Positions 16,962 through 27,047 of a DNA stretch of 40,195 bases are shown here, one piece after another. Numbering within the stretch: the first letter of the stretch is position 1; every line of letters begins with the position of its first letter. The DNA lies in assembly GCA_017859955.1 (NCBI GenBank), contig JAFNAB010000010.1:1-40195 (forward strand), read 5' to 3'. The translations under genes were made by a program, and so were the position numbers. The DNA is from Holophagaceae bacterium (GTDB taxonomy: Bacteria > Acidobacteriota > Holophagae > Holophagales > Holophagaceae). The notes beneath the pieces were generated by a model that saw only the letters and a program-made list of their open reading frames with translations, did not search any database and was not told the DNA's origin.

Positions 16962-17483
16962 TCAGTCCGATACCCCCAACCGCTCCCGGAGCTGGGCACG
17001 CTGGACCTCGTCCACATCCAAAGAACCCAGGATCTCCTCCTCGACCAGAAAGAAATACTCCAGCACGCCCCGGACTTCGCTGTAGTCCGCATCCTCCGGG
17101 CCGTCCAGGAGCGCCGCCTGAACCAGGGGCCAATGGTCCTCGCCGTCGGTGGAGGGCAGGACTGCCCGGAGCATGTCCGCTGGGGAGAGCCCCGCCTCCA
17201 TCAGGGCACGCCCCACATCCCCCCAGGGGGCCTTCAGCGCGACCAGGTGACTGAGGATCTCCTCGTAGGGATAGCCCTCGGCCTTCATCAAGCGGGCTTC
17301 CGTGCCCCAGACCTCCCGCTGGCGCAGGAGCTCCTGGACCTCCTCCTCCGAAAGCCCCGCCGCCCGCAGCTCCCGGATAACATCCAGCCAGAGGGAACCC
17401 CGGAGCACCCCCGCTGGGGCCTCCTGGTCTTCCGCATCCTCAATGATGACGGCGCCCACATAGAGCTTGTTGGAACGGATCAT
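16962..17483 (-). CDS. Hypothetical acidic protein at the end of the mobilization operon
   Basis: This is a 173-aa soluble protein, not recognised. It is acidic and mostly helical. It has repeated short helices with AGLSEEEVQELL, EGYPYEEILSHL and AGLSPADMLRAVLP, which look like degenerate 30-40 residue helical repeats. It has no signal peptide, membrane segment or cysteine pair. Its ATG overlaps the coupling-protein stop as ATGA and is preceded by GAGGAGG, so it is translated with the transfer genes. It could be an accessory factor for the coupling protein or for control of transfer, which is inferred from position only. Confidence 0.7.
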   Translation of the reverse strand: MIRSNKLYVGAVIIEDAEDQEAPAGVLRGSLWLDVIRELRAAGLSEEEVQELLRQREVWGTEARLMKAEGYPYEEILSHLVALKAPWGDVGRALMEAGLSPADMLRAVLPSTDGEDHWPLVQAALLDGPEDADYSEVRGVLEYFFLVEEEILGSLDVDEVQRAQLRERLGVSD

Positions 17484-19348
17484 AGCCAGTCCTCCTCAAG
17501 GGTTGGTTCGGGGGTGGTGGACGTTGGGGAGGAGACGGTCTCGACAGGTGCGGCCCCGGGCACCTCCAGGCACCATTCCGGGAGCTCCACGGCCTTCAGG
17601 GCCTCCCGCTCGGCGGCGCGCACCTCGGCTTCGGAACTGGCCCAGGGGTCTCCCTCTGGAAGCATCGGCCCCAGGGGCGTGCGGGGAATCTCGATGGGCA
17701 CCGGGAACCAGTAGGTGAAGCCGTGCAGGCGCCCCAGGGCTACGCGGCGCTCGGACCAGCTCCCCCAGGCATCCAGAGGCATGAGATCGGCCTCCTTCTC
17801 GGTGGCCTTGGCGTTGCGATTGGCGGGTGGCACCCGGCGGGTGAACCTGCCGATGGCCTGGGTCAGGCGTTGGCGGAGCTCGTCCTCCAGGTTCCGCGCC
17901 AACCAGATCCGGGTCCCAAAGCCCTCCATGACGGCCTTCCAATCCTGGGGATAGACATCCTGGAGGAGGCCGAGGTTCTGGATGCCCGCCACGATGGAGA
18001 CCCCCTTGGAGCGCAGAAGCACCAGGGCGCGCTGGATGTTGGGGATGCGCCCGCAATCCCCGAACTCATCCAGCAGGAGGAGGATCTTGGAGGCCCCTTC
18101 GGGCCGATTCCTCAAGCGGCCCAGCAGCATGGCCCAGAAGACATGCACGGGTCCCTTCAGGGCGTCACTGTCCTCGCAGTTCATGACGTAGCCGCCCCGG
18201 GCGATGAAGTCGTCCAGGGTGAGGGTGCTTGGGCCTTCGGTGATGCTGCGCACCCGGGCGGTCTCCCAGCGGCTCAGGGTCACCACCAGATCCTGGAGCA
18301 CCGGCACCTGGCTCTTGGGTTCCTTCATGGTGTCCATGTAGATGGCGTCCAGGGTCTCCAGGAAGGGTTCCATCCGAGACTCGCGCAGGGTGCGGGCGAT
18401 CTGCTGGATGCTCTCCCAGCGCTTCATTCTCAGGACTGCCCCAAAGAGCACCCGGGCCATGTCCCGAACCCAGCCGTTCGGGTCCTTGGGGTTCTTGGGG
18501 AAGATGTAGTCCACCAGGAGGTCGAAGTCTTCGGTGGTCCGGATCTCCTGGAGGGGGTTCCAGACCCCACTGCGGGTGAGGTGCCCCCGCACATCCAGCC
18601 CAAAGACCGGCCGATCCGGGAACTCGTCCCGGAAGGGGAGCTCGGCCTTGGAGTCCTGATAGACCCAGGGGACGAGGGCGGTGTGCATGATGGGAGCATA
18701 GAGGCTGGCGGTCTTGCCGGAGCCCTGGGGGCCGACCACAAAGATGTGCCTGGAAAGGATGTCCCAGCGGAAAGAGAGCAGGGTGAGGTTGCCGCCCCGG
18801 TGCTGACCCGGGAGGACCAGGCGGCAGGCTCGCCGGGAGTCGCTCCGGTGGACCAGGAGCTCCGCAATGGGGCGCGGGTCCTGGTGCACCTGGCCGCCCT
18901 CGACGACCTTCTGGCTCCATTCCTCGGCGACATCCCGGAACCGGGCATCGGCGCGGCCGTCCCCGCTCCGGACATAGCTAGGGGTGCTGTTCCAGGTGGC
19001 CAAGAGGATGAGGGCGAGCACCAGGACCACTCCATGGATGCCCAGGAACACGGGCCCTTGCCGGAAGGCCCAGGTGAGGAAGTCCCGGTCGGAAACGCCC
19101 CAGAGCAATCCCAGACCCAGAACCAACAATCCCAGACTGAGGGGGAGGGTCTTGGGGGAGCGGCGGTGCAGGAGCAGCCAGCGGGTCAGGCGGTGCAGGC
19201 GCCGCTGAAGGAGATCGCAGGGATCAGCCTGCTCAATCCATAGCCAGCGGAAGGCCCACCAGGCGAGGCCAAGGCCGCCCAGACAGGCCAGCAGGAGGGC
19301 GCCGCCGCCATCCCAGATGCGGAGCAGGGTCAGAATGGTTTGTTTCAT
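17480..19348 (-). CDS. Type IV coupling protein (VirD4/TraD/TraG-like)
   Basis: This 622-aa ATPase links a relaxase-DNA complex to a type IV secretion channel. N-terminal hydrophobic segments at about 15-35, 65-85 and 95-115 anchor it in the inner membrane. The motor domain has Walker A GPQGSGKTAS near residue 213 and Walker B ILLLLDEFGD near 395. The LDVRGHL and WNPL segments are typical of VirD4 proteins. The C-terminus is proline- and glutamate-rich. A longer reading from 19450 is rejected because the ATG at 19348 has GGAGG seven bases upstream and overlaps the relaxase stop as ATGA. No other secretion genes are in the window, so the element may depend on a helper or carry them further left. 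Confidence 0.9.
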   Translation of the reverse strand: MKQTILTLLRIWDGGGALLLACLGGLGLAWWAFRWLWIEQADPCDLLQRRLHRLTRWLLLHRRSPKTLPLSLGLLVLGLGLLWGVSDRDFLTWAFRQGPVFLGIHGVVLVLALILLATWNSTPSYVRSGDGRADARFRDVAEEWSQKVVEGGQVHQDPRPIAELLVHRSDSRRACRLVLPGQHRGGNLTLLSFRWDILSRHIFVVGPQGSGKTASLYAPIMHTALVPWVYQDSKAELPFRDEFPDRPVFGLDVRGHLTRSGVWNPLQEIRTTEDFDLLVDYIFPKNPKDPNGWVRDMARVLFGAVLRMKRWESIQQIARTLRESRMEPFLETLDAIYMDTMKEPKSQVPVLQDLVVTLSRWETARVRSITEGPSTLTLDDFIARGGYVMNCEDSDALKGPVHVFWAMLLGRLRNRPEGASKILLLLDEFGDCGRIPNIQRALVLLRSKGVSIVAGIQNLGLLQDVYPQDWKAVMEGFGTRIWLARNLEDELRQRLTQAIGRFTRRVPPANRNAKATEKEADLMPLDAWGSWSERRVALGRLHGFTYWFPVPIEIPRTPLGPMLPEGDPWASSEAEVRAAEREALKAVELPEWCLEVPGAAPVETVSSPTSTTPEPTLEEDWL

Positions 19349-20898
19349 CGATCGACCTCCAGGCCGCGCGTGGCGGCATTGATAGCGTTGTGGGCAACGG
19401 TGCTGGCCAGCTCCAGCGCCTTGGCGGCGACCCCGGCCACGGGCAACCAACCGGCCACCTGGAAGGCCTTCTGCAGGGGCTCCGGAAGGGTGCTCTTGAG
19501 CCCCGCTGCCCGGGTGACGCTCCCGCCCAGTTCCAGGGCGCCGTTGGCCAGGGTCTTGCCCAGAGCCAGGGGGGAGAGGGTCACGGTGTCTTTGGCGGCG
19601 CCCAGGGTGGTCTTGGCGGTGGTGCCGAGGGCCTGCTGGGCCATGCGCAGCTCCCGGGGGAGCAGCTCGCTGACCCCGGCCCCAGCGGTGCGGGCGGCCC
19701 CCTTGGCCAGTTCGCCGCCCGCCCGGAGGGCGCCCTGGCCCAGCTCCTTTCCGGCCAGACCCAGGTCCTGGCCGACTTCCTTGCCCAGACCGGCCAGCGA
19801 AGCGCCGCCGGTGGGCAGAGCCATCACCAGGGCCGCCCCGGTTTTGACGGAGGCCTGGGCCACATGGAGGCTGCTGCGTAGGGCCGCCTTGGCGGTCTCC
19901 TGGGAGGCCCGCAGGGCGGTCTGGGCTCCAGCATCGGCCAGGGCAAGGGCAGCCCGCGCCACCATGCGCACCGGGGCGGGCAGACCCATGGCCCGCATGG
20001 CCTGGTCGGCGGCGCTTCGACCAAGTCGGCTGGCGCCCCGGGTGAGGCTCTGGGCCATGCGTCCGCCCTGGTCGACGCCCCTGCCGAGGCGAGCCTTCAC
20101 TTGCCCCAAGTGCCGATCGGCTTCCCGCTTTTCGAGGCGGCGGAGCGAGCCGGTGCGGCGATGCTCAGCCTGCTCCAGTTCAGCCTGGTGGCGCGGGCTC
20201 CCCAGGGCGCCCCTGGCTTCGTAGCGGGCGTGGATCGCCTTGAACTCCGTGGCGTAGCGGCGCTCGATGAGGTCCCGGGCCTTCACCTCAAAGGGACGGG
20301 CCGCTGCGAGCTTCTGGCCGGGGACAGCGCGCTTCATGGCCTCTCGCCGCTGGGTTTCGTTTTCCCGCTGCTGGCGGATGAGCTCCTGGAGGTGGGCCTT
20401 CTCCTTCTGGAAGCGCCGGTGGGCCTGCCAGTCCTGGATACGGGGCTCGTCGCCGTGGAGCTCCCGGTCCCAGGTCTTCTGCATGTGCCCGTGCTTGCCA
20501 AGGGTGCGCTCGGGCATGGGGCCGCTGACGGCGATGTGGTAGTGAAAGCGGCCGTCCTGCTCGTGGATGGCCAGGACATAGGGGCGCCCCTGGGCATGGG
20601 CCTGCGCGATCCGGGTGCCGGTGTCCGCCATGGCCTGCTGGGGGTGCTCGGGGTTGCGGGCCTTGATGGCCGCGCACTCCTGGGCGCTGGGGGCCACGAT
20701 GACCTCGTGGTATTCCCCGCGAGGCCCGCCTAAGGTCTGGATGGCCTCCTGGTTTTCGAGCTCCTTCCCCTCGGCGCCCAGCAGGCGAGCGGCGTCCCGG
20801 CCGTGCTCGCTGCCCAGGTAGTGGGTGCGGCGGTTCCAGGTGGGCGCCTGCTGGCGTCCCCGGAAGCCGGGGGTGAACCCTGCCTTGATGATGGCCAT
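19345..20898 (-). CDS. Relaxase / mobilization protein
   Basis: This is a 517-aa relaxase-like protein. The N-terminal 160 residues carry YHEVIVAP at about 62-69 and a histidine cluster IHEQDGRFHYHIAVSG around 108-123. That matches the HxH metal site of Mob-type relaxases, which nick oriT and stay bound to the 5' end. The catalytic tyrosine is probably in the first 30 residues (THYLGSEHG), but this is not certain. A basic helical region follows (about 150-250). The C-terminal 250 residues are Ala/Gly/Leu-rich amphipathic repeats of uncertain use. The ATG at 20898 overlaps the stop of the preceding gene as TGATG. An upstream extension to 21513 is out of frame with known domains and is rejected. 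Confidence 0.85.
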   Translation of the reverse strand: MAIIKAGFTPGFRGRQQAPTWNRRTHYLGSEHGRDAARLLGAEGKELENQEAIQTLGGPRGEYHEVIVAPSAQECAAIKARNPEHPQQAMADTGTRIAQAHAQGRPYVLAIHEQDGRFHYHIAVSGPMPERTLGKHGHMQKTWDRELHGDEPRIQDWQAHRRFQKEKAHLQELIRQQRENETQRREAMKRAVPGQKLAAARPFEVKARDLIERRYATEFKAIHARYEARGALGSPRHQAELEQAEHRRTGSLRRLEKREADRHLGQVKARLGRGVDQGGRMAQSLTRGASRLGRSAADQAMRAMGLPAPVRMVARAALALADAGAQTALRASQETAKAALRSSLHVAQASVKTGAALVMALPTGGASLAGLGKEVGQDLGLAGKELGQGALRAGGELAKGAARTAGAGVSELLPRELRMAQQALGTTAKTTLGAAKDTVTLSPLALGKTLANGALELGGSVTRAAGLKSTLPEPLQKAFQVAGWLPVAGVAAKALELASTVAHNAINAATRGLEVDR

Positions 20899-21362
20899 CA
20901 GGACTCTCCCCGGAGGGCACGCATCTTGGCCTGGGCGGAGGAGGTAATCTCGGCCGCCCTCGGGCTGGACTCCACGACCCCCAGCAGGTGGGCATAGCTG
21001 AGCTGGCAGAGCCCCAGTACGCCCGCCAGGGTCTGGAGGATCTGGGCTTCTCGCTCCGCCTGCCCCTCCTCGACCTTTCGAAGGATGGCCACCAGGGCCT
21101 CGATGCGGGTGGCGTGCCTGGCCTGCTGCTCGACCACCCCGAGGAGGGTGCGAGCCAGGGATTCCAGGCGAGGGCCGAAGGTTTCCTCGGCCATCCGCTC
21201 CTTGGCGTCGTCCAGGAGGTTCCGCAGGGCCTGGGTATGGTTCACCCCCTGTCGCTTGGCCAGCTCCTCCAGCACCCCCCAGGATTCCGCCCCCACCCGG
21301 GCATGCACCACGTTCTTGGCACGCCCTGAACCCAGTGGGGACCGCCACTTCCGCTCTTCCAT
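20898..21362 (-). CDS. MobC-like relaxosome accessory protein
   Basis: This 154-aa protein begins the mobilization operon. Residues 15-55 (RAKNVVHARVGAESWGVLEE and NHTQALRNLLDDA) look like a ribbon-helix-helix DNA-binding region. The rest is a long coiled coil (LESLARTLLGVVEQQARHATRIEALVAIL). Proteins of this kind bind oriT and help the relaxase melt the nic site. The ATG at 21362 has AGGAGG six bases upstream. The gene overlaps the relaxase start. The family name rests on position and fold pattern, not on a clear sequence signature. Confidence 0.7.
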   Translation of the reverse strand: MEERKWRSPLGSGRAKNVVHARVGAESWGVLEELAKRQGVNHTQALRNLLDDAKERMAEETFGPRLESLARTLLGVVEQQARHATRIEALVAILRKVEEGQAEREAQILQTLAGVLGLCQLSYAHLLGVVESSPRAAEITSSAQAKMRALRGES

Positions 21363-21872
21363 GTTGCGCCTCCTGTTGCACCCAGGCGCTGGGACCACAT
21401 GAATGCACCACCCCTAAGCCCGCCCAAAGACAGGGCTTTGCCCAGGGGGCGCCACAGTCACGCGCCACAGCGAACTTGCCACCCGAAGGGTTCGATCTTT
21501 CGATCGCCCCCACGCCAACCTTTCAGCCAGGATTAGGCCGTGGGGATTGGGTTGCAAGGGGCTTTTTGTTGGTAAAACAGATGCTTACATTGGCAAATGG
21601 AGACTGCTGAAATTTCTTTTCGGCCTGTCCGAGTGTGGGGGTATTCCGCCTGCCTGAGGGTTCCCCCAGCAGTTCCCTGTGCTGGGTGAAGGTGAGGGAA
21701 TGCCTGTTCCTCAATCCCTTGGGGTGGGTGCCACGGTTCCCGAGGTTCCCTTGTGTGGCAAGGCCACCAGGATGTGCCCCCGTTCTGAAAAAAAATCGGG
21801 AGAATTTTTTGCGTCCGGGATACGGGCGGGATACAGCAAGGCCCCCGGGAAGGGGGCCTGTGTTGCTAAGTC
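21363..21872. other. Non-coding region between mob operon and tRNA-Ser, candidate oriT and element end
   Basis: About 510 bases without a gene. Near the mob operon there are a GGGC/GCCC hairpin at 21433-21443, two direct copies of GCGCCACAG (21449-21457 and 21462-21470) and two copies of TTCGATC (21491 and 21499). Such clusters of short repeats upstream of mobC are typical of an origin of transfer, though no known nic motif was recognised. The region at 21541-21640 is AT-richer and probably holds the mob promoter. Near 21788-21812 is an A/T-rich inverted repeat. The right end of the element should lie at the 3' end of the tRNA. Confidence 0.45.
21840..21858 (-). terminator. Hairpin after tRNA-Ser
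   Basis: GGCCCCC and GGGGGCC form a seven-base-pair GC stem with a five-base loop, 15 bases beyond the tRNA 3' end. The downstream T content on the minus strand is low (TTGCTGTAT), so it may stop transcription imperfectly. Confidence 0.6.
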
Positions 21873-21960
21873 TGGCGGAGAGAGAGGGATTCGAACCCCC
21901 GGTGAGTTTCCCCACACCTGATTTCGAGTCAGGCGCATTCGACCACTCTGCCATCTCTCC
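21873..21960 (-). tRNA. tRNA-Ser(CGA)
   Basis: The minus strand folds as a class II tRNA. The acceptor stem is GGAGAGA/TCTCTCC, the anticodon stem is CCTGA/TCAGG around loop CTCGAAA (anticodon CGA, reads UCG), and there is a long variable arm TGTGGGGAAACTCACC. The T-loop is GGTTCGAATCC, and CCA is encoded after a G discriminator base. It lies exactly between the mobile element and core genes with its 3' end facing the element, the usual arrangement when a tRNA gene serves as attB for a tyrosine recombinase. Confidence 0.95.
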
Positions 21961-21995
21961 AGGAGGGTCAGTCTAGCAGGGCTTGGGCTGGGCTT

Positions 21996-22451
21996 CTAGC
22001 CTCGGCGGCGCTTGAAGAAGGCTTGGAGTTGGGCGCGGCATTCGTCTTCCAGGAGGCCGCCTTCGAGCAGGATGCGGTGGTTGAGGTTGGCCTGGGCCAG
22101 GGTGTCCTGCAGCTTGCTGATGCCGACCTTGGGGTCCGGGGCGCCGAAGACCACCCGCTCGACCCGGGCGTGGGTGAGGGCGCCGAAGCACATGAGGCAG
22201 GGCTCGAGGGTGACGTAGAGGGTGGAGCCGGTCATGCGGTAGTTGCGGAGCCAGGCGCCGGCGCTGCGCAGGGCCATGATTTCGGCGTGGGCGCTGGGGT
22301 CGTTCTGGCCGATGGGGGAGTTGTGTCCCTTGCCGACGATGCGACCCTCCTGGACCAGTACGGCGCCGATGGGCACCTCGTCCTCGCGGTCGGCGTCCTC
22401 GGCGGCCTCCAGGGCCAGTCTCATGAAGTAGAGGTCGTCTCCCGTCCACAT
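21996..22451 (-). CDS. tadA: tRNA-specific adenosine deaminase
   Basis: This 151-aa enzyme converts adenosine 34 of tRNA-Arg(ACG) to inosine. The cytidine-deaminase fold is clear: HAEI at 55-58 supplies a zinc ligand and the catalytic Glu57, and PCLMC at 84-88 gives the two zinc cysteines. VPIGAVLV and NYRMTGSTLYVTLEPC are typical of TadA. The length is normal. It reads towards the tRNA-Ser gene and is divergent from carA, separated by 308 bases. Confidence 0.95.
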   Translation of the reverse strand: MWTGDDLYFMRLALEAAEDADREDEVPIGAVLVQEGRIVGKGHNSPIGQNDPSAHAEIMALRSAGAWLRNYRMTGSTLYVTLEPCLMCFGALTHARVERVVFGAPDPKVGISKLQDTLAQANLNHRILLEGGLLEDECRAQLQAFFKRRRG

Positions 22452-22759
22452 CGATCAGGGCTCCTCGTTGTCACAAGTCCATGGTTGGCATCGCGCCGGG
22501 CTGGAAGAAATCCGCACCGGAAGAGGCCGGGCCCTTTTAGACTGGAAAAGGAAAGGCGTTCCAGCTCCCGAGGGGTCTGCAACGCCTTGCGAAGACGGAA
22601 GTATCCCACAAAACGCCTTAAACTTAAAGACTGGTTTACGGCCGCGAATGGCCGCAAAATCCCCAAGGCCCCTGAGTGTGGGTCGGCTCATCGCAGGCGC
22701 CGCAGGGGGTGAAACCCGGCGGCGCTTTTTCTATGAAGAGAGTTGTTGGAGGAGGCGAT
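22452..22759 (+). other. tadA-carA intergenic region with carA leader
   Basis: This 308-base divergent gap contains the promoter region of both genes and a leader for carA. A small stem CGGCC/GGCCG lies at 22639-22654, and a very strong terminator-type hairpin lies at 22697-22730. The AT-rich stretch near 22615-22640 could hold a promoter, but no consensus pair is clear. Confidence 0.5.
22697..22730 (+). terminator. Attenuator-like hairpin in the carA leader
   Basis: GCGCCGC (22697-22703) pairs with GCGGCGC (22719-22725), an inner GGGT/ACCC stem extends it, and five T residues follow at once. It ends only 30 bases before the carA start codon, with no gene upstream on this strand that needs a terminator. 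It therefore probably controls carAB by premature termination, as is known for pyrimidine genes in other bacteria. The sensing mechanism is not evident. Confidence 0.75.
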
Positions 22760-23842
22760 ATGCGGGCCCACTTGATCCTAAAAGATGGCAAGACCTTCCG
22801 GGGGAAGGCTCCACTTGGATTTGGTGGCTCTGGCGAGGCCGTCTTCACCACCTCCATGACGGGCTACCAGGAAATCCTGACGGATCCCAGCTTCGCCGGC
22901 CAGATGGTCTGCATGACCTTCCCCGAGCAGGGCATCTATGGCATCCATCACAACCTCAACGAGGCGGCCCGCCCCTGGGCCACGGCGCTGCTGTGCCGTC
23001 GCCTCACCGGGGTGCCGGACCACGTCTTCGCCGAAGGGGACATGGGGACCTGGCTGCGCCGCCACCGCGTGCCCATCATGACCGAACTGGATACCCGAGG
23101 CCTGACCCAGTACCTGCGGGACAAGGGCGCCCAGCCCGGCCTCATCTGGACGGATTCCGAGGGCTCCCTGGAGGCGGGCATCGCCGCCGCCGCCGAGCTG
23201 CCCGAGATGGTCGGTCAGGCCCTGGCCGCCGAAGTGAGCTGCGCCGCACGCTATGACATTCCCACCCCCGGCGCCAAGTTCCGGGTGGCGGTGCTGGATG
23301 GCGGCATCAAGGACTCCATCCTCAAGCAGCTCCACGCCACCGGCTGCCACCTGGAGGTCTTCCCCTGGGACGCCCCGGCGTCTGAACTCACGGATAAGCG
23401 CTTCCACGGCCTCTTCCTGAGCAACGGCCCCGGCGATCCCGCCGCCCTGCAGGGGATGCGCAAGGAAGTGGAGGCCTGCATCGGCAAGCTCCCCATCTTC
23501 GGCATCTGCCTGGGGCACCAGCTCCTGGGCCACGCCTTCGGGGGCAACACCTTCAAGCTCAAGTTCGGCCACCGTGGCGCCAACCAGCCGGTGCTGGACC
23601 TGGCCACGGGCCGGGTCGAGATCACGGCCCAGAACCACGGCTTTGCCGTGGACGAAGCCAGCCTTCCTCCGGAGATCCAGGTGACCCACCGCCACCTCAG
23701 CGATGACACCGTGGAGGGCCTGCGCCACAAGAGCCTTCCCATTTTCAGTATGCAGCACCACCCCGAGGCCAGCCCTGGCCCCCACGACGCCCGACACGCC
23801 TTCGGGAAGTTCGTCGCGATGATGGAGCAGTACCATGCCTAA
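22760..23842 (+). CDS. carA: Carbamoyl-phosphate synthase small subunit
   Basis: This 360-aa glutaminase subunit supplies ammonia for carbamoyl phosphate, used in pyrimidine and arginine synthesis. The N-terminal CPSase domain (about 1-150) has the [16 protein letters not shown] block. The C-terminal class I amidotransferase shows FLSNGPGDP, the nucleophile in [10 protein letters not shown], and HHPEASPGP with the catalytic His and Glu. The ATG at 22760 follows GGAGGAGG closely and matches the usual family N-terminus. A longer reading from 22676 would start before the hairpin and is rejected. The gene overlaps carB by eight bases. Confidence 0.97.
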
Positions 23843-26800
23843 GCGAACCGACCTGTCCTCCGTCCTCGTCCTGGGTTCCGGCCCCATCCAGATCGGCCAG
23901 GCCTGCGAATTCGACTACTCCGGCACCCAGGCCCTCAAGGCCCTGCGGGAGGAGGGGATCCGCACGATCCTCCTGAATTCCAACCCGGCCTCCATCATGA
24001 CGGACCCCATCCGGGCCGACGCCACCTACATCGAGCCCCTGACCCTGGGAATCCTGGAAAAGATCCTGGAGAAGGAGCGGCCCGACGCCATCCTGCCCAC
24101 CGTGGGCGGTCAGACGGCCCTGAACCTGGCCCTGGAGGCCGCCAAGTCCGGCCTGCTGGAGCGCCTGGGCGTCAAGCTCATCGGTGCCCAGGTGGAAGCC
24201 ATCGAAAAGGGCGAGGACCGCGCCAAGTTCAAGGACCTCATGGACGAGCTGGGCCTGGAGACCTGCAGGGGCGGCTTCGCCCACAGCCTCGAGGAGGGCC
24301 ATGAGCTGGTGAAGGTGACGGGCTTCCCCGCCATCCTCCGCCCCAGCTTCACCCTGGGCGGCAGCGGCGGCGGCATCGCCTACAACATCGAGGAATTCGA
24401 CACCATCCTGCGCCGGGGCCTGGACCTCTCGCCCATCCGCCAGGTGCTGGTGGAGGAGAGCATCCTGGGCTGGAAGGAATTCGAGCTGGAAGTGGTGCGG
24501 GACCTCGATGACAACGTGGTCATCATCTGTTCCATCGAGAACCTGGATCCCATGGGCGTCCACACCGGCGACAGCATCACCGTCGCCCCGGCCCTGACCC
24601 TGACGGATCCCGAGTACCAGAACATGCGCAACGCCGCCATCGCCGTGATCCGCGGCGTGGGGGTGGAGACCGGCGGCAGCAACGTCCAGTTCGCTCTCCA
24701 GCCCGAGACCGGCCGCCTCATCATCGTGGAGATGAATCCCCGGGTGAGCCGCTCCTCGGCCCTGGCCTCCAAGGCCACGGGCTTCCCCATCGCTTGGGTG
24801 GCCACCAAGCTGGCCCTGGGCTACCGCCTCTGGGAGCTTCCCAACGTCATCACCGGCAAGACCAAGGCGGCCTTCGAGCCCGTGCTGGACTACGTCGTCA
24901 TCAAGATGCCCCGCTTCACCTTCGAGAAGTTCCCCCAGGCCGCGCCGGTGCTGGGCACCCAGATGAAGAGCGTGGGCGAGGCCATGTCCATCGGCCGCAG
25001 CTTCCAGGAAGCCCTCCAGAAGGCCATGCGCAGCCTGGAGTGCGGGCACCCCGGGCTGGCCGGGGCCATGGACGGCAAGCTGGACCTCTCCCGCCTGAAG
25101 GAGCACCTCATCACCCCCGGTCCTGACCGAATCGTTTGGATCTACCAGGCCCTCAAGGCCGGGCACACCGTCAATACCCTGGTGAGCCTCACGGGCATTT
25201 CCGCCTGGTTCATCCGGGAGATGGAAGAGATCGTGGAACTGGAAGGCCGTCTGCGGGGCTTCAGCGTGGAGCACCTGCCGGAGGAGCTTCTGGAGAAGGC
25301 CAAGCGCTCGGGCTTCACTGACGCCCAGATCGCCACCTTCTGCGGCTCCACCGAGGCCCAGGTCGCCGCCCGCCGCGAGGGGATGGGTCTGCGCCAGGTC
25401 GCCAAGCGGGTGGACACCTGCGCTGGCGAGTTCGTGGCCGAAACCCCCTACCTCTACCAGACCTGGGATGAGGTCTCCGAGGCACCCCCCTCGGATCGCC
25501 CCAAGGCCATGGTGCTGGGCTCCGGCCCCAACCGCATCGGCCAGGGCGTGGAGTTCGACTGTTGCTGCGTCCAGGCCGTGGAGGCCATTCGGGCCGCCGG
25601 GGTGGAAGCCATCCTGGTGAACTGCAACCCCGAGACCGTCAGCACCGACTTCGACACCTCCGATCGCCTCTACTTCGAGCCCCTGGACTTCGAGAGCGTG
25701 ATGGCCGCCATCGACCGGGAAAGCCGGAACGGCAACTTCCTGGGGGTCTTTGCCCAGTTCGGCGGGCAGACGCCCCTGAAGCTGGCCGGTCCCCTGGAGG
25801 CCGCCGGGGTCAAGCTCCTGGGCACCCCCCTCAAGGCCATCCTGGATGCGGAGGACCGGGAGCGCTACGGCCAGGTTCTCAGCAAGCTGAAGGTCCCCGC
25901 CGCCGAATGGGGCATGGCCCGCAGCATGGAGGAGGCCCGGATTCTCGCCAACCGCATCAGCTACCCCGTGATGGTCCGCCCCAGCTTCGTGCTCGGCGGT
26001 CGCGCCATGGCGGTGGTCTTCGACGAGAAGGGCCTGGAACGGTACGTCCGTGAGGCCGCCGCCGTGGACGAGACCCAGCCCGTGCTCATCGACCGCTACC
26101 TGGACGGTGCCCAGGAGCTGGACGTGGATCTGGTCTGTGATGGCAAGGATGTGGCCATCGCCGGTGTCATGGCCCACATCGAAGAGGCGGGTGTCCACTC
26201 GGGCGACAGCTACGCCGTCTTCCCCCCCATGGGCGTGGAGGAGAGCATCCTCGATACGGTCAAGGACTACAGCCGCAAGCTGGCGCTGGAGTTGGGCGTC
26301 AAGGGGCTCATGAACCTTCAGTGGGCCTTGAAGGATGGCGTGGCCTACTGCCTGGAGGCCAATCCCCGGGCCAGCCGCACCGTGCCCTTCCTCTCCAAGG
26401 CCACGGGCCAGGACTGGGCGGGCGTCGCCGCCCGCATCGGCCTGGGTCAGAGCCTGGAGGATCAGGGTGTGAAGGACGGGCAGCCCCTGGCGGTGGCCGT
26501 CAAGGGCGTGGTCTTCCCCTTCGCCAAGTTCCCGGAAGTGGACCCGGTCCTGGGCCCCGAGATGAAGAGCACCGGCGAGGTCATGGGCCTGGGTTCCACC
26601 TTCGGTGAGGCCTACGCCAAGGCCCTCCTGGCGGCGGGCATCCGCATCCCCCTCGAAGGCAAGGTCTTCCTGTCCGTGAACGACAACGACAAGGCCAGGC
26701 TGCCCGAACTGGCTACCCGCCTGGCGGGTCTGGGCTTCCAGCTCTGCGGCACCGACGGCACCGCCCGCCACATCGAAGAGACCGTGGGTATGAAGATCCA

Positions 26801-27047
26801 GCGCATCAACAAGGTGGCCGAAGGCCGTCCCCACGCGGTGGATCTCCTGAAGAACGGCGATATCCAGTGGGTGATCAACACCCCCATGGGCCGCAGCGCC
26901 TACCAGGACGAAGGCACCATCCGCCAGGAGGCCCTGCGCCTGAAGATTCCCTGCCTCACCAACTTCAACGCCGCCCTGGCCGCCTGCGAGGCTGTGGAGA
27001 CGCTGAGGATGGAACTGCGGGTGAGGTCGCTGCAGGAACTCAGTTAA
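23835..27047 (+). CDS. carB: Carbamoyl-phosphate synthase large subunit
   Basis: This 1070-aa synthetase subunit uses two ATP, bicarbonate and ammonia. It has two homologous ATP-grasp halves, each starting with a signature: [19 protein letters not shown] near residue 13 and [19 protein letters not shown] near 560. A helical oligomerization domain lies between them. The C-terminal allosteric MGS-like domain spans about 930-1070 ([23 protein letters not shown]). Length and order are normal. The ATG overlaps the carA stop as ATGCCTAA, so the subunits are translated together. The stop codon lies inside a perfect palindrome that ends the operon. Confidence 0.98.

Follow-up and report, generated by a model that had tools for sequence, protein, structure and literature searches.

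The carAB operon of a Holophagaceae bacterium is probably controlled by a promoter-proximal attenuator, in which a 5'-terminal RNA hairpin (P1), a short linker and an intrinsic terminator would stop many RNA polymerases about 60 nt into the leader, and would do so in a regulated manner. Judged by sequence and comparison, the leader has the layout of such an attenuator, with a predicted intrinsic terminator that lies between the promoter and the first gene and appears unneeded by any gene upstream. The first-pass annotation had proposed attenuator-like control of carAB from a GC-rich hairpin with five T residues before carA and a smaller CGGCC/GGCCG stem farther upstream; the part of this proposal that stands is a conserved terminator downstream of a conserved promoter, while the role given to the small stem does not. 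Carbamoyl phosphate synthase, the product of carAB, supplies both arginine and pyrimidine synthesis.

The carA leader in the window

The window, i.e. the whole 40,195-nt stretch of contig JAFNAB010000010.1 that was analysed, carries the following features around carA:

21996..22451, minus strand: tadA-like deaminase gene, divergent from carA (PF14437, 106.6 bits; PF00383, 101.4 bits)
22631..22636, plus strand: predicted -35 element CTGGTT (46 of 56 leaders carry CTG here, with the 18-nt spacing unchanged)
22639..22655, plus strand: small CGGCC/GGCCG stem, positioned in the promoter spacer and absent from the sister leader L006
22655..22660, plus strand: predicted -10 element CAAAAT (-10-like hexamer at the equivalent place in 56 of 56 leaders, with a hexamer list picked by eye after the leaders were inspected)
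22667..22684, plus strand: P1, predicted 5'-terminal RNA hairpin with arms 22667-22671 and 22680-22684 (conserved core, compensatory changes)
22685..22695, plus strand: linker, predicted to be single-stranded (length conserved; 10-17 nt in 54 of 56 leaders)
22696..22726, plus strand: terminator hairpin (conserved in 56 of 65 family leaders)
22726..22730, plus strand: T-run (U-tract) of five T (at least four T in the six bases 3' of the stem in 56 of 56 leaders, partly by construction, as this doubled as a search condition)
22748..22755, plus strand: Shine-Dalgarno sequence of carA, GGAGGAGG, assigned from the sequence
22760..23842, plus strand: carA, carbamoyl-phosphate synthase small subunit (TIGR01368, 404.6 bits, cut-off 307)
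23835..27047, plus strand: carB, large subunit (1070-aa ORF, named from its sequence and position alone)

carA and carB share 8 bases at their junction. The gene upstream of carA, which we take to be tadA, is divergent, so that no upstream gene needs the terminator, in agreement with the first-pass annotation. Among 64 other loci, the tadA-like gene was divergent from carA in 49 and co-directional in none, and in 15 it was not within the upstream stretch examined. A tRNA-Ser(CGA) gene (21873-21960, minus strand) adjoins the tadA-like gene and lies about 2.4 kb from a gene for a type IV secretion coupling protein (17480-19450, minus strand; PF10412, 62.6 bits; PF02534, 52.5 bits); the two may belong to a mobilisable element that integrated at this tRNA gene. 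The ORFs at 19345-21513 and 20898-21398 beside the coupling-protein gene gave no Pfam match.

The hairpin with its five T residues is present as described earlier, at 22696-22730, and ends 29 bases before the carA ATG at 22760. The stem (22696-22726) is formed by GGCGCCGC...GCGGCGCT and encloses a GGG/CCC stem; it consists of 11 pairs with one mismatch and is followed by TTTTT. When the 200 nt upstream of carA were subjected to dinucleotide shuffling, none of 200 shuffles reached the score of this terminator, and 18 of 200 contained any passing terminator site. A generic terminator scan of 21000-24000 returned no site, with 2.4 expected from shuffles; in our opinion, it missed the carA terminator because its rule of an uninterrupted stem and a loop of 3-8 excludes an interrupted stem. 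The whole carA leader of the window folds no more stably than shuffles (z -0.51), and P1 of the window taken alone does not differ significantly from shuffles (p 0.21). In Rfam release 15, nothing in the window except a tRNA scored above the gathering threshold, and the three sub-threshold matches in 22452-22800 are weak. What carries the case for the element is its conservation across genera.

An alternative fold that would include the CGGCC/GGCCG stem had been considered. The stem falls between the -35 and -10 elements, a location that makes it probably untranscribed, and it is lacking in L006, both of which speak against that role. A transcription start downstream of the hairpin had been named as an outcome contrary to attenuation; instead, a conserved promoter lies upstream of the hairpin, and the start predicted from the sequence falls at about 22666-22667.

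Conservation of the leader in the Holophagaceae

carA was found in 66 of the 77 genomes of the family, and the 300 nt upstream of it were read in 65 of these 66, with the genera labelled g1-g11; the sequences are MAG contigs. This set omits a partial carA copy in genome G017 and a second copy in G029, both of which match the leader model described below. Genus g3 is Geothrix: the leader of genome G010 (L137) is identical to L008 of Geothrix limicola over the 200 bases compared. One entry titled Bacillota bacterium (L007, JAJTBC010000023.1) has the same carA leader as L089 of the family over 200 bases, and its title looks wrong.

A comparison of carA leaders from relatives for co-varying stems, as the first-pass annotation had proposed, detected the terminator directly 5' of carA in 56 of 65 leaders and 8 of 11 genera (g1, g2, g3, g5, g6, g7, g8 and g10), with compensatory changes. 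Thus, the lack of conservation that had been set out as the opposite outcome was not seen, and the terminator is kept in the carA leaders of related genera. It is missing in nine of the 65 leaders (all five g9 leaders that were read, the single one of g4, both of g11 and L106 of g3) and is therefore dispensable. The common order is a -35 element (mostly CTG), an 18-nt spacer, a -10 element, P1 about 7 nt on, a linker, the terminator and a U-tract; the sequence of the terminator stem differs by genus (GCGCCGC, CCCCGCG and TCCCCC types). In L116 (g5), two terminator-like hairpins lie in tandem before carA. The g9 leaders L090, L091, L112, L136 and L146 keep the promoter, and neither P1 nor the terminator was found in them by the rules used; L090 and L091 have, by eye, a possible other hairpin (GGGGTC...GATCCC) before the Shine-Dalgarno sequence.

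All five pairs of the P1 core form in 51 of the 56 leaders, and in 47 of 56 the first base of P1 is the 7th after the -10 element; thus, the RNA probably starts with P1. Tested against shuffles in 28 leaders chosen to span genera, P1 reached p<0.05 in 17 and was weak or not significant in L126 (p 0.21), L148 (p 0.10) and L096 (p 0.07) as well as in the window; in this test, it was not found in the five g9 leaders and L106. By the strict rule, no P1 was found in L087 either. P1 is retained without the terminator in L149 (g11) and L096 (g4). The arm pairs differ by genus (GGTCC/GGACC, GATCC/GGATC, GGTTC/GAACC and AAGTC/GACTT); the sequence of P1 thus varies from genus to genus, whereas its pairing is kept. 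We also considered P1 as a DNA operator and rejected this reading, as the G-U pairs and the differing arms between genera favour pairing in RNA.

Over the consensus structure, 94.3% of cells are paired, compared with 89.4% in shuffles and 36.6-51.2% when the structure is slid along the leaders; the slid controls agree, and a structure derived from the consensus exceeds them partly by construction. Cells changed on both sides numbered 27 against 6.1 in shuffles (none of 500 as high), and two-sided changes occurred in 7 of 13 pairs against 3.6 in shuffles (7 reached in 6 of 500). These counts cover 46 of 51 distinct leaders (L087, L093, L144, L145 and L147 were left out), and P1 of g1, g7 and g8 is misaligned in them and thus partly scored as unpaired; moreover, related sequences can beat shuffles without structure, and kinship makes the leader counts non-independent. 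Read with these limits, the comparison indicates that P1 and the terminator covary across the leaders of the family.

The distance from the -10 element to the terminator stem is 33-38 nt in 54 of the 56 leaders and 29 nt in both g2 leaders, in which the linker is 8 nt long. Among 47 distinct leaders, its variance is 2.57, compared with 5.67 expected from independent parts, and none of 2000 permutations gave a variance as low, in a test that is weakened by the shared ancestry of the leaders. The distance is near-fixed because the lengths of loop and linker offset each other. Within the linker, a TTCTCAC-like stretch is conserved in 40 full-length g3 leaders (41 were listed in the alignment and 40 counted at most columns); the motif is conserved within g3 but not between genera.

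The stem-to-ATG gap, the Shine-Dalgarno sequence included, is 18-43 nt in 43 of the 56 leaders and therefore, in our judgement, offers too little room for a separate promoter. With a divergent upstream gene and so short a gap, carAB should be transcribed through the terminator. Owing to extra sequence, the gap is 73-129 nt in the other 13 leaders (at least 80 nt in 12), and these 13 may hold a second carA promoter. Twelve g3 leaders (L094, L097, L099, L104, L107, L110, L111, L114, L123, L130, L131 and L137) have about 40-95 extra nt with G/C-rich palindromes between terminator and Shine-Dalgarno sequence, which could be a repeat or further leader structure; for the extra sequence of L114, 400 kb of the same genome contain a single further match, which is weak (75% over 61 nt). 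In L106 (genome G034, g3), the -10 element is kept, P1 and the terminator are lost and 28 nt separate the -10 element from the ATG. By this natural deletion, the promoter is linked to carA.

With the leader model R1, 52 of the 77 genomes yielded 53 matches at E<=1e-4, all at carA by coordinates; most of these were in the training set, and the informative part is therefore that there are no other sites. Weaker R1 matches included antisense echoes and scattered sites, and none of the 12 weak off-carA matches inspected had carA, carB or pyrR nearby. In a phylum sample of 297 genomes, the family included, three genomes outside the family matched at E 7e-4 to 9e-4, which we take to be chance; plasmid sequences gave no match to the leader. 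In 400 kb of genome G012 (Geothrix), one of 94 divergent gene starts, that of carA, has such a terminator, in a scan based on rough gene calls, with a rule that was tuned on its positive control after carA had at first been missed. In total, comparison across the family argues for the architecture, its conservation and covariation, a near-fixed distance to the promoter and, in most genomes, the lack of room for a second promoter.

Possible modes of control

We propose that RNA polymerase starts at about 22666-22667 and that the first 15-18 nt of the RNA fold into P1, with the short single-stranded linker next. The GC-rich hairpin and U-tract would then halt many polymerases about 60 nt from the start; stopped polymerases would leave a short leader RNA, and those that pass would yield carAB mRNA. 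Termination in the cell and its regulation are what we infer from this arrangement. Control would act on P1 and the linker, or on the young elongation complex, via a factor or nucleotide supply; we place it there because the leaders yielded neither a conserved antiterminator nor a leader peptide or PyrR loop. The sensor is thus placed by deduction, and pyrimidines or arginine as its signals are guessed from the identity of the controlled gene.

The nearest rival to a regulated attenuator is a constant damper, in which a fixed fraction of polymerases stops without any signal and the element just keeps carAB low. The same three absences, as well as the loss of the terminator in nine of 65 leaders, fit this reading. 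On the other hand, a constant damper would need no P1 at the start, no compensating lengths and no conserved linker, and a weaker promoter would suffice; we consider it possible but rather unlikely.

A gene for a small RNA would account for the promoter, the 5' hairpin, the conserved single-stranded linker and the terminator, which together resemble one: the terminated two-hairpin RNA would act in trans, and the terminator would be mainly its 3' end. GraL of Escherichia coli does both (PMC6829880). Set against this are the differences in linker sequence between genera, the constant position of the element at carA, the lack of room for a separate carA promoter in most leaders and the persistence of P1 without the terminator in g4 and g11, and we give a small-RNA gene little chance of being the main explanation.

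Much the same is to be said of nucleotide sensing of the pyrG or E. coli carA-P1 type, in which low UTP or CTP would alter initiation by stuttering and hence termination. carAB encodes the entry enzyme for pyrimidines and arginine, P1 is located exactly at the predicted start site, and TTT occurs within bases 4-8 after the -10 element in 19 of 56 leaders. pyrG-type attenuation uses a homopolymer run. Such runs are likewise used by the stuttering mechanism at E. coli carA (PMC6245113). Against it, all 56 leaders lack both GGG at bases 7-9 past the -10 element and TTT within bases 6-11, which makes this mode of control quite improbable.

In an RNA-only switch, perhaps confined to the genus of the window, P1 and the linker would form an antiterminator by pairing with the terminator's 5' half. 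The window offers such a competing pairing between CCCCTG (22669-22674) and CAGGGG (22703-22708), which falls just short of the terminator in strength (-21.0 kcal/mol, compared with -22.5 kcal/mol; in the sister, -22.6 kcal/mol compared with -23.0 kcal/mol). The pairing is not conserved: over the 56 leaders, the best duplex between the upstream part and the terminator's 5' half has a mean energy of -11.1 kcal/mol, compared with -20.0 kcal/mol for the terminator, with a mean z of +0.36 against shuffles, and only in L140 and L141 does it equal or exceed the terminator in strength. The Rfam search, with weak matches below the gathering scores and none at them, points the same way, and we regard such a switch as improbable.

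A leader peptide finds little room in these leaders. ATG occurs in 21 of 56 and GTG or TTG in 38 of 56, and a start codon preceded by a Shine-Dalgarno sequence in just 6 of 56. One candidate with five Arg codons, CAT CGC AGG CGC CGC AGG GGG TGA in the terminator arm, was rejected, as no start codon serves it: the CGC AGG CGC CGC AGG frame has no ATG, GTG or TTG start inside the leader of the window. The stop of this stretch is missing in L006.

Attenuation by PyrR, which would bind P1 and set terminator formation, has in its favour a true PyrR in the genome of the window (NF003549, 205.9 bits, cut-off 138), encoded beside pyrB, and the presence of PyrR, at the score threshold applied, in 63 of the 77 genomes of the family. 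Yet PyrR and terminator do not go together in g2 (PyrR match in none of three genomes, P1 and terminator in both leaders read) or g9 (PyrR in six of six genomes, no terminator in the five leaders read), and no PyrR loop was found at P1 with the consensus used (at least 2 mismatches of 14 in the best matches, those listed being located elsewhere), so that this mechanism is very unlikely. In the genome of the window, pyrR is followed directly by pyrB (L205, G000:C210:49700-54500; pyrB named from its sequence), and pyrR leaders of several relatives have, by eye, a GC-rich palindrome between a -10-like hexamer and the Shine-Dalgarno sequence. In viral contigs, the PyrR pattern matched 10 stretches, none of which was confirmed.

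Relation to known leaders and significance

The PyrR attenuators of Bacillus pyr operons exert terminator-based control of pyrimidine genes. The carA leader resembles them in having a terminator at a pyrimidine gene in a family in which most genomes encode PyrR, and differs in lacking a PyrR loop and a conserved antiterminator. The CTP-sensing pyrG attenuator of B. subtilis needs a GGG run at the transcript start; like it, the carA leader is short, with a terminator and an element close to the start site, whereas the initial GGG is absent in 56 of 56 carA leaders at the predicted start.

In behaviour, the closest known counterpart by analogy would be GraL, an element of the E. coli greA leader that is both a terminator and a small RNA. 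There, about a third of transcripts pass, the leader RNA is about 49-59 nt long, and control needs sequence before the terminator, with its partner unsettled (PMC6829880). Both leaders are short, with an intrinsic terminator near the promoter and without a recognised sensor. They differ in gene and phylum, in spacing (GraL has 19 nt before the terminator and its AUG at +150, whereas the carA ATG usually lies 18-43 nt past the stem) and in the separate 5' hairpin before the predicted terminator of the carA leader. As the gene is carA and not greA, the leader may work like GraL but is not GraL.

The anatomy of the leader differs from that described for two systems at carA itself. The SRC-12-1 motif of Polynucleobacter is likewise a leader RNA candidate 5' of carA and 3' of a promoter, with no second promoter seen; in these beta-proteobacteria it is described as a single extended hairpin that is imperfect and covaries little, whereas the carA leader has two short hairpins with a terminator, and the two are set apart by description, not by sequence (PMC8632094). 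The same operon in E. coli has tandem promoters; ArgR and further DNA-binding factors control it, as does stuttering at the P1 promoter, which depends on UTP, and attenuation is said not to act on promoter P2 (PMC6245113). A literature search, with subscription journals outside its reach, returned no account of the present carA leader.

Going further, the leaders could form a carAB-specific family of attenuators in which P1 and the terminator, at a near-fixed distance from the promoter, act on the first 60 nt of the polymerase's path without antiterminator, leader peptide or PyrR; the early elongation complex would itself be the sensor, through nucleotide supply, P1-stabilised pausing or the binding of a factor, and the released leader RNA may have a further role in trans. 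We put this forward as speculation that is on balance unlikely to hold in full. The leader is easy to test, because it is compact, conserved over genera and tightly spaced from its promoter, and has a natural deletion in L106. How the level of carAB is controlled outside model bacterial groups is poorly known, and should control prove to reside in the first 60 nt and to need no antiterminator, the carA leader of the Holophagaceae would provide a second case for the puzzle posed by GraL.
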